Shown here: positions 13,899-18,148 of the stretch, in pieces
Layout: the number at the start of each line of letters is the position of its first letter
Numbering within the stretch: the first letter of the stretch is position 1
DNA from: SAR202 cluster bacterium
Lineage (GTDB): Bacteria > Chloroflexota > Dehalococcoidia > Lucifugimonadales > VXLM01
Reading direction: 5' to 3'
DNA length: 64,000 nucleotides
Assembly (NCBI GenBank): GCA_022448725.1
Contig: JAKUTR010000008.1
Span: 4,806 to 68,805 of the forward strand
Position numbers and translations under genes: made by a program
Notes under the pieces: model-generated
Databases searched by the model: none
Seen by the model: the letters and a program-made list of their open reading frames with translations, nothing else
What the model was told of the DNA's origin: nothing

Positions 13899-14609
13899 AT
13901 GAAGGTCGTGTTTTTACAAGACGTAGAAGGTGTAGCTAACGGTGGAGATGTTAAAGAGGTTAAACGAGGATTTGCTCGTAATTATCTCGTACCTAAAGCC
14001 CTGGCGGTCCCTGCAACAAAAGATGCGTTGCAGCGAATCGAACGACTCACACGCCAATCTGACGAAAATCGGGTAAAGCGCATAGAAAACTTGCAGGCGC
14101 TCGCCGATGAACTCGGTGGACAACGCGTTGACGTAGCAATGCGAGCTGGAGCCAGTGGCCGGCTATACGGATCTGTAACTAACACAAATATTGCAGAACA
14201 ACTATCTACTCTAATTGACAGCGAAATCGGGCGACGCAGTGTCGAGATACCTGAACCGATCAGGGATGTCGGCGTTTACGAAGTGAATATTCGCCTCTAC
14301 AGTGACATCAGCGCGTCCGTGAATGTTCTTGTACACCCAATGGATACTGATCCAGATGAATATCTTCAGTTCCTCGAGACTAGGAAGCAATCAGAAGAAG
14401 ATACGGACACGGGAACAGGAGATGAACTAGAAGCTGAGCTAGCTACCCCCATGAACACAGACCAACCCGTTGAAGATATTGGGGCTTCTGGTGAAAATGA
14501 GGATGAGGATACAGCGGATTCATCAAACGAAGTAGAGGCCGATGAGGAGACTCTTTCGGAGTCGTCTCATACTTCTCCCGACGAAGAATCAGTTGAGTCA
14601 ACAGAGTAG
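13899..14609 (+). CDS. rplI: 50S ribosomal protein L9 with long acidic C-terminal tail
   Basis: Residues 1-147 are a complete L9: the N-terminal rRNA-binding domain with MKVVFLQDVEGVANGGDVKEV and GFARNYLVPKALA, the connecting helix, and the C-terminal domain with the SGRLYGSVTNTNIAE motif. Bacterial L9 usually stops near residue 148; this one continues for about 89 residues that are rich in Glu, Asp, Ser and Thr with few basic residues and no repeats I can see, probably disordered. TAGGTGAG lies 8 bases before the ATG. First gene of the replication operon; rplI next to dnaB is a common bacterial arrangement. Confidence 0.95.
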   Translation: MKVVFLQDVEGVANGGDVKEVKRGFARNYLVPKALAVPATKDALQRIERLTRQSDENRVKRIENLQALADELGGQRVDVAMRAGASGRLYGSVTNTNIAEQLSTLIDSEIGRRSVEIPEPIRDVGVYEVNIRLYSDISASVNVLVHPMDTDPDEYLQFLETRKQSEEDTDTGTGDELEAELATPMNTDQPVEDIGASGENEDEDTADSSNEVEADEETLSESSHTSPDEESVESTE

Positions 14610-14655: not shown

Positions 14656-14685
14656 TTTTGCCTTGAGTGTCGGGAGTCGGCAAAA
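14656..14685 (+). other. Stem-loop between rplI and dnaB (first)
   Basis: TTTTGCC (14656-14662) pairs with GGCAAAA (14679-14685) across a 16-base loop. It lies 47 bases after the rplI stop. It is not followed by a U-run, so it is not a usual terminator; it may be part of the dnaB leader structure. Confidence 0.4.
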
Positions 14686-14700
14686 GTAACGTAGGGCTAC

Positions 14701-14754
14701 TGCGGAAGACGTGTCCTCCTGAACAGCCCTCCCCTTGGAGCCACGTTTTCCGCA
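14701..14754 (+). other. 13-bp hairpin upstream of dnaB
   Basis: TGCGGAAGACGTG (14701-14713) pairs along its full length with CACGTTTTCCGCA (14742-14754), with one G-U pair. The 28-base loop contains a smaller CTCC/GGAG hairpin. The structure ends 44 bases before the proposed GTG start of dnaB and could act as an attenuator, an RNase site or a protein-binding site. Function is inference. Confidence 0.6.
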
Positions 14755-14798
14755 CTGTTGTTTCCCGGCCAAACGCTACGCTAATTGGAGATCCCCGC

Positions 14799-16178
14799 GT
14801 GTACGTAGACCGGTTGCTACCACACAACCCCGAAGCCGAGGAAGCTGTAGTTGGATCGATCCTCATCGATGAGGAATCGCTGTCTAAAGCAACATCTCTC
14901 ATAGTCCCTGCAGATTTCTACGTTGGAAAGAACCGCCGCTGCTACGAGGCACAACTAGCCTTATTCGAACGAGGGGAATCGATAAATCAAGTTACGGTCG
15001 CTGAGGAACTTGCCTTGCAAGAACACCTCGACGAGGTAGGTGGAGTCGCATACCTTGCACATCTAGTCAGAATGGTGCCGACATCCGTGCATGTTGAGCA
15101 TTATGCCGGCATTGTCCAACGGACCTCAGTGATGCGACAACTCATAAGCACTGCAGACAATATCGCCGCGATCGGGTATGAAGGCGATGCAAGTGTAGAC
15201 AACGCACTGTCAAAAGCTGAGGACCTTCTGTACCGGATCAGAACCGGGCAGAAAAGTGGGGATTTTGTCCACATACGAGAAGTATTGGACCGGTATATGG
15301 AAGAGACCGCTTCCCTGGAAGTCGACAGTGAACTTAACTTCGCTCCTGTTCCTACAGGATTCTCTGATTTTGACCAACTGCTGGGAGGAGGACTACAACG
15401 ATCTGATCTTGTAATCATCGCAGCTCGGCCCAGTCTTGGAAAAAGTACCCTCGCATTCAACATAGCTCGACATGCCTCCGAACAAGGATTCTCGGCTGGC
15501 GTTTTTAGCCTGGAAATGGGTGCTGAACAAATTGGTATCAGGCTGGTTTCCAGTGAAGCAAATATTGACAGCCACCGGATGCGGATGAGCCTGATAAGCG
15601 AAGTTGAGCGCCAACGCGAACTCGACGCCATTGGGCACCTCTCTGAGTTACCCATTTATATTGATGATTCGCCTATGCAAAGCATCGCCGAAATCAGGGG
15701 GAAATCTAGACGATTACAAATCGAGCGCAGCGTTGATCTCTTAATCGTGGATTATATTCAACTTATCAGTGGTACAAGTGGCCGGTCTGAAAATCGAGTA
15801 CAGGACATGAGTGAAATTTCAAGATCCCTGAAAGCTATCGCTCGCGATCTTGGCGTTCCGGTAATAGCATTATCCCAGTTGAGTCGAGCTCCTGAACAAC
15901 GGCCTAATCACCGACCTCTTTTATCTGATCTCCGTGAAAGTGGCAGTATTGAACAGGACGCTGACGTAGTAGCATTCATATATCGTGAAGACAAGTATGT
16001 GACTCGTGACGAGTGGGAGAAACGAAACCCAGGTGCCCCTTACCCACAGAATATTGCAGAATTGATCATTGCAAAGCACCGCAATGGCCCCACTGGTGAC
16101 GTAAACCTTTATTTCCGTGAAGACGTAGTTACTTTTGAATCCTTGGCTCGCCCACAAATCGCGCCGGAGTTAGCATAA
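14799..16178 (+). CDS. dnaB: Replicative DNA helicase DnaB
   Basis: The ring helicase of the replication fork. I choose GTG 14799 (459 residues) because GGAG lies 8 bases upstream and the protein then begins VDRLLPHNPEAEEAVVGSIL, the normal DnaB N-terminus; the frame stays open back to a GTG at 14667 but that would add 44 unrelated residues and run through the hairpin. The N-terminal helical domain covers about residues 5-110, the RecA-like domain starts near residue 185 with Walker A (ARPSLGKST), Walker B (LLIVDYIQLI) and the DnaB box with ALSQLSRAPEQR and LRESGSIEQDADVV. No intein. One base separates it from the next gene. Confidence 0.95.
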   Translation: MYVDRLLPHNPEAEEAVVGSILIDEESLSKATSLIVPADFYVGKNRRCYEAQLALFERGESINQVTVAEELALQEHLDEVGGVAYLAHLVRMVPTSVHVEHYAGIVQRTSVMRQLISTADNIAAIGYEGDASVDNALSKAEDLLYRIRTGQKSGDFVHIREVLDRYMEETASLEVDSELNFAPVPTGFSDFDQLLGGGLQRSDLVIIAARPSLGKSTLAFNIARHASEQGFSAGVFSLEMGAEQIGIRLVSSEANIDSHRMRMSLISEVERQRELDAIGHLSELPIYIDDSPMQSIAEIRGKSRRLQIERSVDLLIVDYIQLISGTSGRSENRVQDMSEISRSLKAIARDLGVPVIALSQLSRAPEQRPNHRPLLSDLRESGSIEQDADVVAFIYREDKYVTRDEWEKRNPGAPYPQNIAELIIAKHRNGPTGDVNLYFREDVVTFESLARPQIAPELA

Positions 16179-16179
16179 T

Positions 16180-16836
16180 ATGGCCTTCCAAGGATTCCCC
16201 GAGAAACTGCGCTATACACCTGTCCCTGGCCCCCTGCTCGGCTCTCTTCTAGAACAGATAGACGACCTTGGGGAGATGAAAGTGATACTACGCGCCGTGT
16301 GGCTCCTCCATCAGAAACGAAATTACCCTCGGTACTGTTTGCTATCCGATTTTCTTAATGACCCCACACTCGTAACCGCACTTGGTGGTCCTTCATCAGC
16401 AGAGGTCAACATTCGCGGCTCTCTCGATCGTGCAGTCAAACGTGGCACCCTAGCTTCCGCAACCATCGACGGTACTATCGCCTTTACACTAAATGTCGAT
16501 CGCGAAGCACGAGCACTCTACCAACTGTCAGAGGATAAGCAAGCTGATTCAACACCGCAGAATGATCCCCCTACGTGGGGAAGTGCAACTGGCCAACCAA
16601 ACATCTTCGCAATGTACGAAGACAACATTGGAATGCTGAACCCGATGATTGCTGAGGAGTTGAAAATCGCCGAGAATAGCTACCCGCCGAAGTGGATTGA
16701 AGAGTCGTTTCGAATAGCCGTTGTCCAAAACAAGCGGAGTTGGCGTTACATAGCTAACATACTAGATCGCTGGGAGCGAGAAGGAAAGACTGATGCAGGA
16801 CCTCTCCAAAGTCCTACACAAACTAGCTACTACTAA
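16180..16836 (+). CDS. DnaD-domain primosome protein
   Basis: A 218-residue protein. The N-terminal half resembles a winged-helix unit (KVILRAVWLLHQKRN...YCLLSDFLNDPTLV). The C-terminal part (about 150-212) has the DnaD/DnaB_2 pattern: a YEDNIGMLNPMIAEEL helix, then PPKWIEESFRIAVVQNKRSW and RYIANILDRWEREG. In Bacillus such proteins (DnaD, DnaB) remodel the origin and help load the replicative helicase. It lies between the helicase and the loader genes, overlapping the loader by 44 bases, which strongly supports a helicase-loading role. Confidence 0.85.
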   Translation: MAFQGFPEKLRYTPVPGPLLGSLLEQIDDLGEMKVILRAVWLLHQKRNYPRYCLLSDFLNDPTLVTALGGPSSAEVNIRGSLDRAVKRGTLASATIDGTIAFTLNVDREARALYQLSEDKQADSTPQNDPPTWGSATGQPNIFAMYEDNIGMLNPMIAEELKIAENSYPPKWIEESFRIAVVQNKRSWRYIANILDRWEREGKTDAGPLQSPTQTSYY

Positions 16837-18148
16837 ACCAGTCGATGATGGGCAATATATCCCGCCTGTTAGCCATGGCGAAGGTGACAAGGAATGTAAC
16901 GTCTGTGGAGGACTAGGTTGGATCACAGCTAACGTACCTGTCACTCATCCTGAGTTTGGAAAACTGACCCCTTGCCAGTGTAGGCGTGGGAGACTTGATG
17001 CTGAACAACACGAACGACTGTTGCGATTCAGTAACTTAGGCCAACTTGAGACCCGCACCTTTGAAGCACTCGATCGCAATGGCCCCCAAAAAGAAACACA
17101 CGGCCAACTTTTTCAAAAAGCCTATGATGTTGCCCTTGAGTATTCATCAGCGCCTTCCGGTTGGCTCATAATAACTGGGCCAAACGGGTCTGGAAAAACA
17201 CACCTTGCATCGGCCATAGCGAATCGATCCATAGAGAATGGGATGGTCGTTTTCTTCACACATGCACCCGACTTGCTCGACCATCTACGATCTAGCTTTG
17301 GTCCTACTAGCGAAGTCACATACACAGACCTGTTTGAGCAAGTTCGTCAAGTACCAATGCTAATCTTGGATGGTGTCGGCAGTCAGAGCACGACTTCTTG
17401 GGCCGAAGAGAAGCTACGACAGATCATCAACAGCCGTTATAACGAAGAACTCCCCACCATCATCACAACCTCGACAAGCTTTGATGACCTTGACCCTTAC
17501 ATAGCTGCCCGCACCAGTGACGAGCGAGTAAGCACTACCATCTCTCTGGGTAATAGCAGTCCCACTTTGGAACATGGAATTGATTTGGTTCCAGAGGATA
17601 TGTTGGAACGCATGACCTTTGAAACTTTTCAAATCAGACAATCGACTCATAGTTCCCAAATGCAAAGTCTTCAAGCAGCGTTCGAAGCGGCGGAACATTT
17701 CGCATCCCATCCTGAAGGTTGGTTGACTCTGTTTAGCCACAACACCGGCGTGGGTAAAACTCACTTGGCTGTTGCAGTAGCAGGAGAACAAATCAAAGCA
17801 GGCCGTACTGTTTTCTTCGCCTTCGTCCCAGAACTACTTGACTACTTACGCTACACATTCACTCCAGAAAGTACTATCCGATACGATCGGGTTTTTGAAG
17901 ACGTGAAGAACACTCCTTTACTCATCCTCGATGATCTCGGACATGAGCATAGTAGCCCCTGGGCGCAGGAAAAACTGTACCAAATCGTTGTCCACCGTCA
18001 TAACAACCGATTGCCTACGCTAATAACCAGTTCAAGGGACTTCACCGAAGATTCTGGCCCAATTAGTTCCCGTATACAAGACGCATCGACCGGAATCTTC
18101 ATACGTATCGAAGCAGACGATTATAGGAAAAAAGGCAGACGCGGCTGA
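16793..18148 (+). CDS. Tandem two-module DnaC/DnaI-like AAA+ helicase loader
   Basis: A 451-residue protein; typical DnaC/DnaI loaders are 245-310 residues. Residues 35-63 hold a zinc-binding set (Cys35, Cys38, Cys61, Cys63). Module 1 (about 84-255) has Walker A GPNGSGKT (129-136) but Walker B reads LILDG, losing the second acidic residue (194 Gly). Module 2 (about 270-440) has Walker A HNTGVGKT (316-323), lacking the first Gly, but an intact Walker B LILDD (377-381) and the SSRIQD arginine-finger region near 425. The modules align along their whole length, so the protein arose by duplication. AAGGAAAG lies 6 bases before the ATG. It probably loads DnaB. Confidence 0.88.
   Translation: MQDLSKVLHKLATTKPVDDGQYIPPVSHGEGDKECNVCGGLGWITANVPVTHPEFGKLTPCQCRRGRLDAEQHERLLRFSNLGQLETRTFEALDRNGPQKETHGQLFQKAYDVALEYSSAPSGWLIITGPNGSGKTHLASAIANRSIENGMVVFFTHAPDLLDHLRSSFGPTSEVTYTDLFEQVRQVPMLILDGVGSQSTTSWAEEKLRQIINSRYNEELPTIITTSTSFDDLDPYIAARTSDERVSTTISLGNSSPTLEHGIDLVPEDMLERMTFETFQIRQSTHSSQMQSLQAAFEAAEHFASHPEGWLTLFSHNTGVGKTHLAVAVAGEQIKAGRTVFFAFVPELLDYLRYTFTPESTIRYDRVFEDVKNTPLLILDDLGHEHSSPWAQEKLYQIVVHRHNNRLPTLITSSRDFTEDSGPISSRIQDASTGIFIRIEADDYRKKGRRG

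Follow-up and report, generated by a model that had tools for sequence, protein, structure and literature searches.

In a stretch of 64,000 nucleotides of SAR202 DNA (hereafter the window), the gene that follows dnaB and a DnaD-domain gene raises the question of how a putative helicase loader with two AAA+ modules in one chain distributes its ATPase work between them. Its open reading frame was confirmed, and the product is a tandem DnaC/DnaI-type AAA+ protein of 451 amino acids (Table 1). A sequence-only reading of the window had proposed that the two modules form a covalent pair with divided labour, in which module 1 binds ATP and module 2 hydrolyses it or signals, their complementary motif losses being fixed. 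We consider it probable that the protein is instead a duplicated loader of DnaB, of the DnaC/I type, in which the ATPase duty has been relaxed asymmetrically and module 2 is the core.

Table 1. Position of the loader gene, its neighbours and its motifs in the window, with residue numbers of the protein in brackets.
Feature	Positions	Strand	Basis or state in relatives
rplI, first gene of the cluster	13899..14609	+	near 65/72 related loci
dnaB, replicative helicase	14667..16178	+	TIGR00665 above cut-off; near 70/72 related loci
DnaD-domain protein	16180..16836	+	PF07261 / TIGR01446; near 69/72 related loci
Tandem DnaC/DnaI-type AAA+ protein, 451 aa	16793..18148	+	open frame; PF01695 twice; NCBIfam PRK08116 subfamily above cut-off; own-genome match
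N-terminal region (1-82), unduplicated; helix 4-12; CxxC (35-38) ... CxC (61-63) zinc-type motif	16793..17038	+	alignments
AAA+ module 1 (83-253)	17039..17551	+	model match to DnaC 3ec2; PF01695
Module 1 Walker A GPNGSGKT (129-136), intact	17177..17200	+	first Gly 184/185 relatives, Lys 185/185
Module 1 ssDNA-grip residues R166, F169, T201, W203 (E. coli DnaC K143, F146, S177, Y179)	17288..17401	+	alignment to E. coli DnaC
Module 1 Walker B LILDG (190-194), second acid replaced by Gly194	17360..17374	+	Gly here in 24/185; module-1 Walker B altered in 27/185
Module 1 arginine-finger position R240	17510..17512	+	R or K in 172/185
AAA+ module 2 (265-447)	17585..18133	+	model matches to DnaA and IstB AAA+ domains; best PDB sequence match is E. 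coli DnaC
Module 2 P-loop S-HNTGVGKT (315-323), one residue over canonical; first Gly absent, GKT retained	17735..17761	+	relatives; structure model
Module 2 ssDNA-grip residues R353, F356, S388, W390	17849..17962	+	alignment to E. coli DnaC
Module 2 Walker B LILDD (377-381), intact	17921..17935	+	second acid D or E in 181/185
Module 2 arginine finger R427 (E. coli R220)	18071..18073	+	R in 172/185; Leu in three same-genus relatives
Module 2 Sensor II R445 in DYR (E. coli R237)	18125..18127	+	R in 160/185 module 2s, 12/12 primary singles

The two halves are clearly duplicates of each other: residues 84–243 and 270–429 are identical at 67 of 160 positions and align with a score of 323, against 31.4 ± 5.1 for shuffled sequences (maximum 52, n = 300), a similarity that far exceeds chance. 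Each half matches Pfam PF01695, which, together with the match to PRK08116 and the structural matches, places both in the DnaC/DnaI/IstB type of AAA+ modules and bears out their earlier identification as DnaC-like. That the halves align over their whole length is true of the AAA+ parts but not of the first 83 residues, which are present in a single copy. The four cysteines of this N-terminal region are invariant across a 49-row alignment, and the CxxC...CxC arrangement recurs in 181 of 185 tandem relatives; the region is probably the part that binds DnaB. The structure model, built from 49 aligned sequences (mean pLDDT 87.8, pTM 0.66), has an AAA+ fold in both halves, the point on which the sequence-only reading had staked its two-module interpretation. 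Its residues 82–253 superpose on the AAA+ domain of DnaC (3ec2; Z 21.7, rmsd 2.1) and residues 264–447 on those of DnaA and IstB (Z 19–20.5), the mutual placing of the two modules being unreliable because of the pTM of 0.66. Proteins of the p97/Cdc48/Rix7 type likewise carry two AAA+ modules per chain, with a different function, and the weak fit of the whole chain to such tandems (Z 12–14, rmsd 7–8) suggests that the modules are probably arranged differently.

The operon with dnaB and the DnaD-domain gene is real: the profiles match within the window, where the order is rplI, dnaB, DnaD-domain gene and loader, and these neighbours recur in most of the 72 related loci whose upstream sequence was long enough to judge. 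The DnaD-domain gene is the only PF07261 match of the genome. Within its 3′ end, the loader gene starts over an overlap of 44 nucleotides (16793–16836), similar to that in relative L164, which suggests translational coupling. In the window genome (G000), no other DnaC/I-type gene was found, its sole other PF01695 match being DnaA, at C5, and there was no match for DciA (PF05258), a profile positive in 7 of 14 control genomes; since the assembly is 95% complete in 75 contigs, the absence of DciA is not proof. The conserved rplI–dnaB–dnaD cluster and the lack of a detected alternative make the loader role likely, as had been proposed, and the tandem protein is most likely the loader of the replicative helicase across Dehalococcoidia. 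That it is no loader, being rather an IstB transposition helper or some other DnaC-like AAA+ protein that lies beside dnaB by chance, is suggested by the name of the top Pfam family, IstB_IS21. We regard this as extremely unlikely: no transposase gene adjoins the loader (the neighbours are rplI, dnaB, dnaD and metabolic genes) and no mobile context was found, the NCBIfam IstB model scores far under its cut-off (131.7 vs 200 bits), the rplI–dnaB–dnaD context recurs in 65–70 of the 72 loci, the protein is present class-wide and the genome has no other loader gene that we could find. An identity as DnaA was also rejected, given that the helix-turn-helix by which DnaA binds DNA at its C-terminus (PF08299) is not among the matches listed, that the chain stops right after module 2 and that the genome has its DnaA elsewhere.

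As for the motifs, the Walker A and B sequences of module 1 and the Walker B sequence of module 2 are as they had first been read. The Walker A motif of module 2 (HNTGVGKT, 316–323) is indeed altered and devoid of its first glycine, but through the insertion of one residue and not through a substitution. SHNTGVGKT counts nine residues against eight in relative L007 (GEAGVGKT), same-genus relatives read GRRTGVGKT, and the loop between strand and helix is modelled with seven residues in module 2 and six in module 1; the relatives' alignment and the modelled loop thus rule out a plain glycine replacement. Lys322 and Thr323 are retained in this P-loop. Other losses had been overlooked, namely the Sensor I asparagine and the arginine coupler, missing from both modules, and the Sensor II arginine, missing from module 1, where it is not conserved in general. 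Neither module of the window protein thus has the complete ATPase set (Walker A, Walker B, Sensor I, arginine finger and Sensor II).

When the motifs were surveyed in 185 non-redundant tandem proteins, both Walker pairs proved intact in both modules of 150, the very outcome that the sequence-only reading had named as contrary to its proposal. The remaining proteins have an altered Walker B in module 1 only (18/185), an altered P-loop (4/185) or Walker B (4/185) in module 2 only, alterations of both Walker B motifs and P-loop 2 (4/185), or the complementary pattern of the window, i.e., Walker A kept and Walker B lost in module 1 with the reverse in module 2 (5/185). This last pattern is confined to two families, the four proteins other than that of the window (L110, L113, L197 and L174) all belonging to family f7, and a non-canonical P-loop 2, seen in 13 of 185 proteins, is limited within the order to families f1 and f7. 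The window protein belongs to a well-supported clade of 23 rows, 19 of which have lost the second acid of the module-1 Walker B; 10 of these 19 have a fully canonical module 2. Mapped on the tree, the replacement of this aspartate by glycine amounts to nine changes overall, some outside the window clade, and the alteration of P-loop 2 to three. In three same-genus relatives (L003–L005), the second Walker B acids are gone from both modules (LVLDG; LIIDN or LILDN) and the arginine finger of module 2 is a leucine, which leaves no canonical hydrolysing site. In another clade (L017, L051, L202 and L203), the erosion is reversed, module 2 reading LLVLRDF or similar and module 1 being intact.

Complementary loss is thus no conserved or defining design of these proteins, occurring in 5 of 185 and being absent from the same-genus relatives. 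The loss of the module-1 acid is conserved in the clade, but in the three same-genus relatives the acids of both modules are lost. The fixed division of labour described above does account for the pattern of the window, which is real and recurs in family f7, and for the clean split in those clade members that combine the aspartate-to-glycine change with a canonical module 2, which it would fit better than the window protein itself. Against it stand the large majority of tandems with both modules intact, the same-genus proteins without either Walker B acid or the module-2 arginine finger, the erosion of the opposite module in another clade, the dispensability of module 1 (see below) and the P-loop insertion, which would harm ATP binding in the very module supposed to hydrolyse. 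We therefore find it improbable.

A second reading is plain decay, in which the loader of the window lineage would work without ATP hydrolysis and both modules would drift into pseudo-ATPases that serve assembly and DNA grip. It agrees with the absence of the Sensor I asparagine and the arginine coupler from both modules of the window protein, with its altered P-loop 2, with the state of both Walker B motifs in the same-genus relatives and with the lack of any DnaD match in the same-genus genomes. It also agrees with E. coli DnaC, in which every ATPase-motif mutant is devoid of hydrolysis, yet the Walker A and Sensor II mutants load the helicase almost like wild type and the others load it partly (PMC8213410). 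Motif decay is therefore compatible with loading. Pure drift is hard to square with the Walker A lysine, which is present in both modules of all 185 proteins, and with the two arginine fingers and the module-2 Walker B motif that the window protein still has. Plain decay is a tentative possibility for the window lineage. In most of the class hydrolysis is still selected, as indicated by the 150 relatives that keep both Walker pairs, a point that weighs against the relaxed loader that we favour. The Sensor I asparagine is absent from both modules of 137 of the 185 tandems, while all 12 primary single-module loaders have it.

The tandem is not peculiar to the window genome: of 393 Dehalococcoidia genomes, 380 gave a match, and almost every locus that was inspected in this class encodes two modules. 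Judged from these sequences, a tandem loader with asymmetric, progressively relaxed ATPase motifs is a class-wide feature of Dehalococcoidia. A sequencing or assembly artefact is unlikely, because independent genomes agree in the layout of the protein and, to a large extent, in the condition of its motifs. Outside the class, some tandems occur besides single-module loaders, the latter either of about 270–330 amino acids or extended by a long stretch at the N-terminus. In the module tree, the module 1s without exception fall into one clade (94), the primary single-module proteins of other classes make up a separate one (92), and all module 2s group with seven single-module proteins from within the class. 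Within the class sample, the tandem would thus have a single origin; the wider tree of the phylum is poorly supported, so that the tandems of other classes may share this origin or be separate. The seven class-internal proteins lie on at least four branches (L164; L186, L187 and L189; L192; L193 and L194), and in all of them the zinc region is joined straight to an AAA+ module of the module-2 type, which implies at least four deletions of module 1. No loader retaining module 1 alone was seen among the relatives in the module tree. If random, about four deletions would all hit module 1 with a chance of 1 in 16, which is suggestive of module 2 as the core; to the contrary, module 2 is the more degraded one in the three same-genus relatives. 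Since module 1 can be deleted, labour was not strictly divided between the modules in the ancestor.

The residues facing DNA show less erosion. The ssDNA-binding tetrad of E. coli DnaC is K143/F146/S177/Y179 (PMC8213410), and its counterparts are found in both modules of the window protein. The tryptophan of this grip is present in 185/185 module 1s and 181/185 module 2s, its basic residue is arginine or lysine in 184/185 module 1s and arginine in 180/185 module 2s, and the grip is kept in all 27 proteins with an altered module-1 Walker B. To judge by the alignments, the DNA-facing residues are better preserved than the hydrolysis residues in both modules, and both modules are predicted to bind ssDNA.

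The duplicated, asymmetrically relaxed loader that we favour would have arisen as follows. The AAA+ module would have been duplicated within one chain before the radiation of Dehalococcoidia, yielding a single N-terminal zinc-type region ahead of two AAA+ modules, both turned towards ssDNA. Module 2 would be the core and carry what remains of the ATP cycle: it has Sensor II, its arginine finger is the best kept, and in most relatives its Walker motifs are intact. Module 1 would serve as an ATP-binding and DNA-gripping partner that can lose hydrolysis and, in certain lineages, be deleted altogether. This redundancy may have relaxed the ATPase cycle, with loss of the Sensor I asparagine from both modules of most members. 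In the clade of the window, the aspartate-to-glycine change would then have left a module 1 that is predicted to bind ATP without hydrolysing it; in the genus of the window, the P-loop of module 2 would have gained a residue too, compromising that module. Given these two changes, little or no ATP turnover is predicted for the genus, where the opening of the ring and the grip on ssDNA would do most of the loading. Three chains might supply six modules, or six chains twelve, per DnaB hexamer. A more specific version, in which three chains give a paired ring of six modules per hexamer, binding-only module 1 alternating with catalytic module 2, with three-fold instead of six-fold opening and closing and with hydrolysis abandoned in some lineages, including the genus of the window, strikes us as doubtful. 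Arginine-finger losses were compared with how intact their own site or the adjacent one is, as a means of telling an alternating ring from two stacked rings; they are few and come from related proteins.

Compared with E. coli DnaC (6qel, 6qem) and B. subtilis DnaI (4m4w), the window protein has the same PF01695 family, ssDNA-grip residues and arginine-finger position, and tandem loaders also share with them an N-terminal region ahead of the AAA+ module. They differ in having two modules per chain with one N-terminal region for both, in lacking, for the most part, the Sensor I asparagine in both modules and in having Sensor II in module 2 only. Of the features that characterize the DnaC/DnaI group, the AAA+ fold, the ssDNA tetrad and the absence of DciA are thus present, the single module and the full motif set are not. 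A conserved helix and the CxxC...CxC motif at the N-terminus would correspond to the DnaB-binding domain of the group. Closer at hand, the single-module proteins of other Chloroflexota classes (L145–L156), sister to both tandem modules in the module tree, have the same N-terminal zinc-type region and, in most of those checked, a DnaD neighbour, but differ in their one AAA+ module and in having all eight scored motif positions intact (12/12). In the same phylum, a dna[CI] gene domesticated from phages and mutually exclusive with dciA was reported for Chloroflexi from a genome set including Dehalococcoides (Brezellec et al. 2016, PMC5109545), so that there, too, DciA is replaced by a DnaC/I-type gene of phage origin. 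The main text of that paper makes no mention of a tandem or duplicated module, and open-licence full texts yielded nothing on point for a described tandem DnaC. The dnaD–dnaC pairs of phages, e.g., Paenibacillus phage Mock2, have the same order as the window, with a DnaC-like AAA+ gene immediately after a DnaD-domain gene, but the phage protein has one AAA+ module and an identity of 24–28%.

How far a helicase loader depends on its own ATP hydrolysis has so far been studied with point mutations in E. coli DnaC. In Dehalococcoidia, the duplicated loader found across the class has lost hydrolysis motifs, the branch and the module differing from case to case, and several times one whole module, while its ssDNA-grip residues are nearly fixed. 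Tandem loaders thus amount to a natural mutagenesis series with which the opening of the ring, the capture of ssDNA and the turnover of ATP could be told apart, and both the Dehalococcoides lineage and marine SAR202 are among the bacteria that carry them.

A few loci deserve separate mention. PF07261 has no match in G001–G003, the genomes with both Walker B acids lost; their loci L003–L005 have no DnaD-domain gene, and at L003 dnaB adjoins the tandem loader directly. DnaD is also undetected in G012, G163, G209, G302, G328 and G394, and in several of these genomes the loader is divergent or lacks module 1. Two of these, G163 and G012, are small genomes (1.3–1.5 Mb) with very divergent tandem loaders (L188 and L191, about 30% identity) that have GKS P-loops in module 2. 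In module 1 of L185 (G081), an insert of about 20–30 residues separates Walker B from the ssDNA-grip helix. The record of L078 (JAJPGT010000047.1) is named “Proteobacteria bacterium” and encodes a typical Chloroflexota tandem loader, being probably a misnamed or misbinned MAG. Among the single-module proteins, L153–L156 have an N-terminal extension of a few hundred residues, probably disordered, ahead of the CxxC motif. Finally, the dnaB gene at L153 (4944–5942, minus strand), in a genome of another class, appears to contain an intein-like insert (CLAGETSVYLADEG ... VVHNS) before SIEQDADVV.
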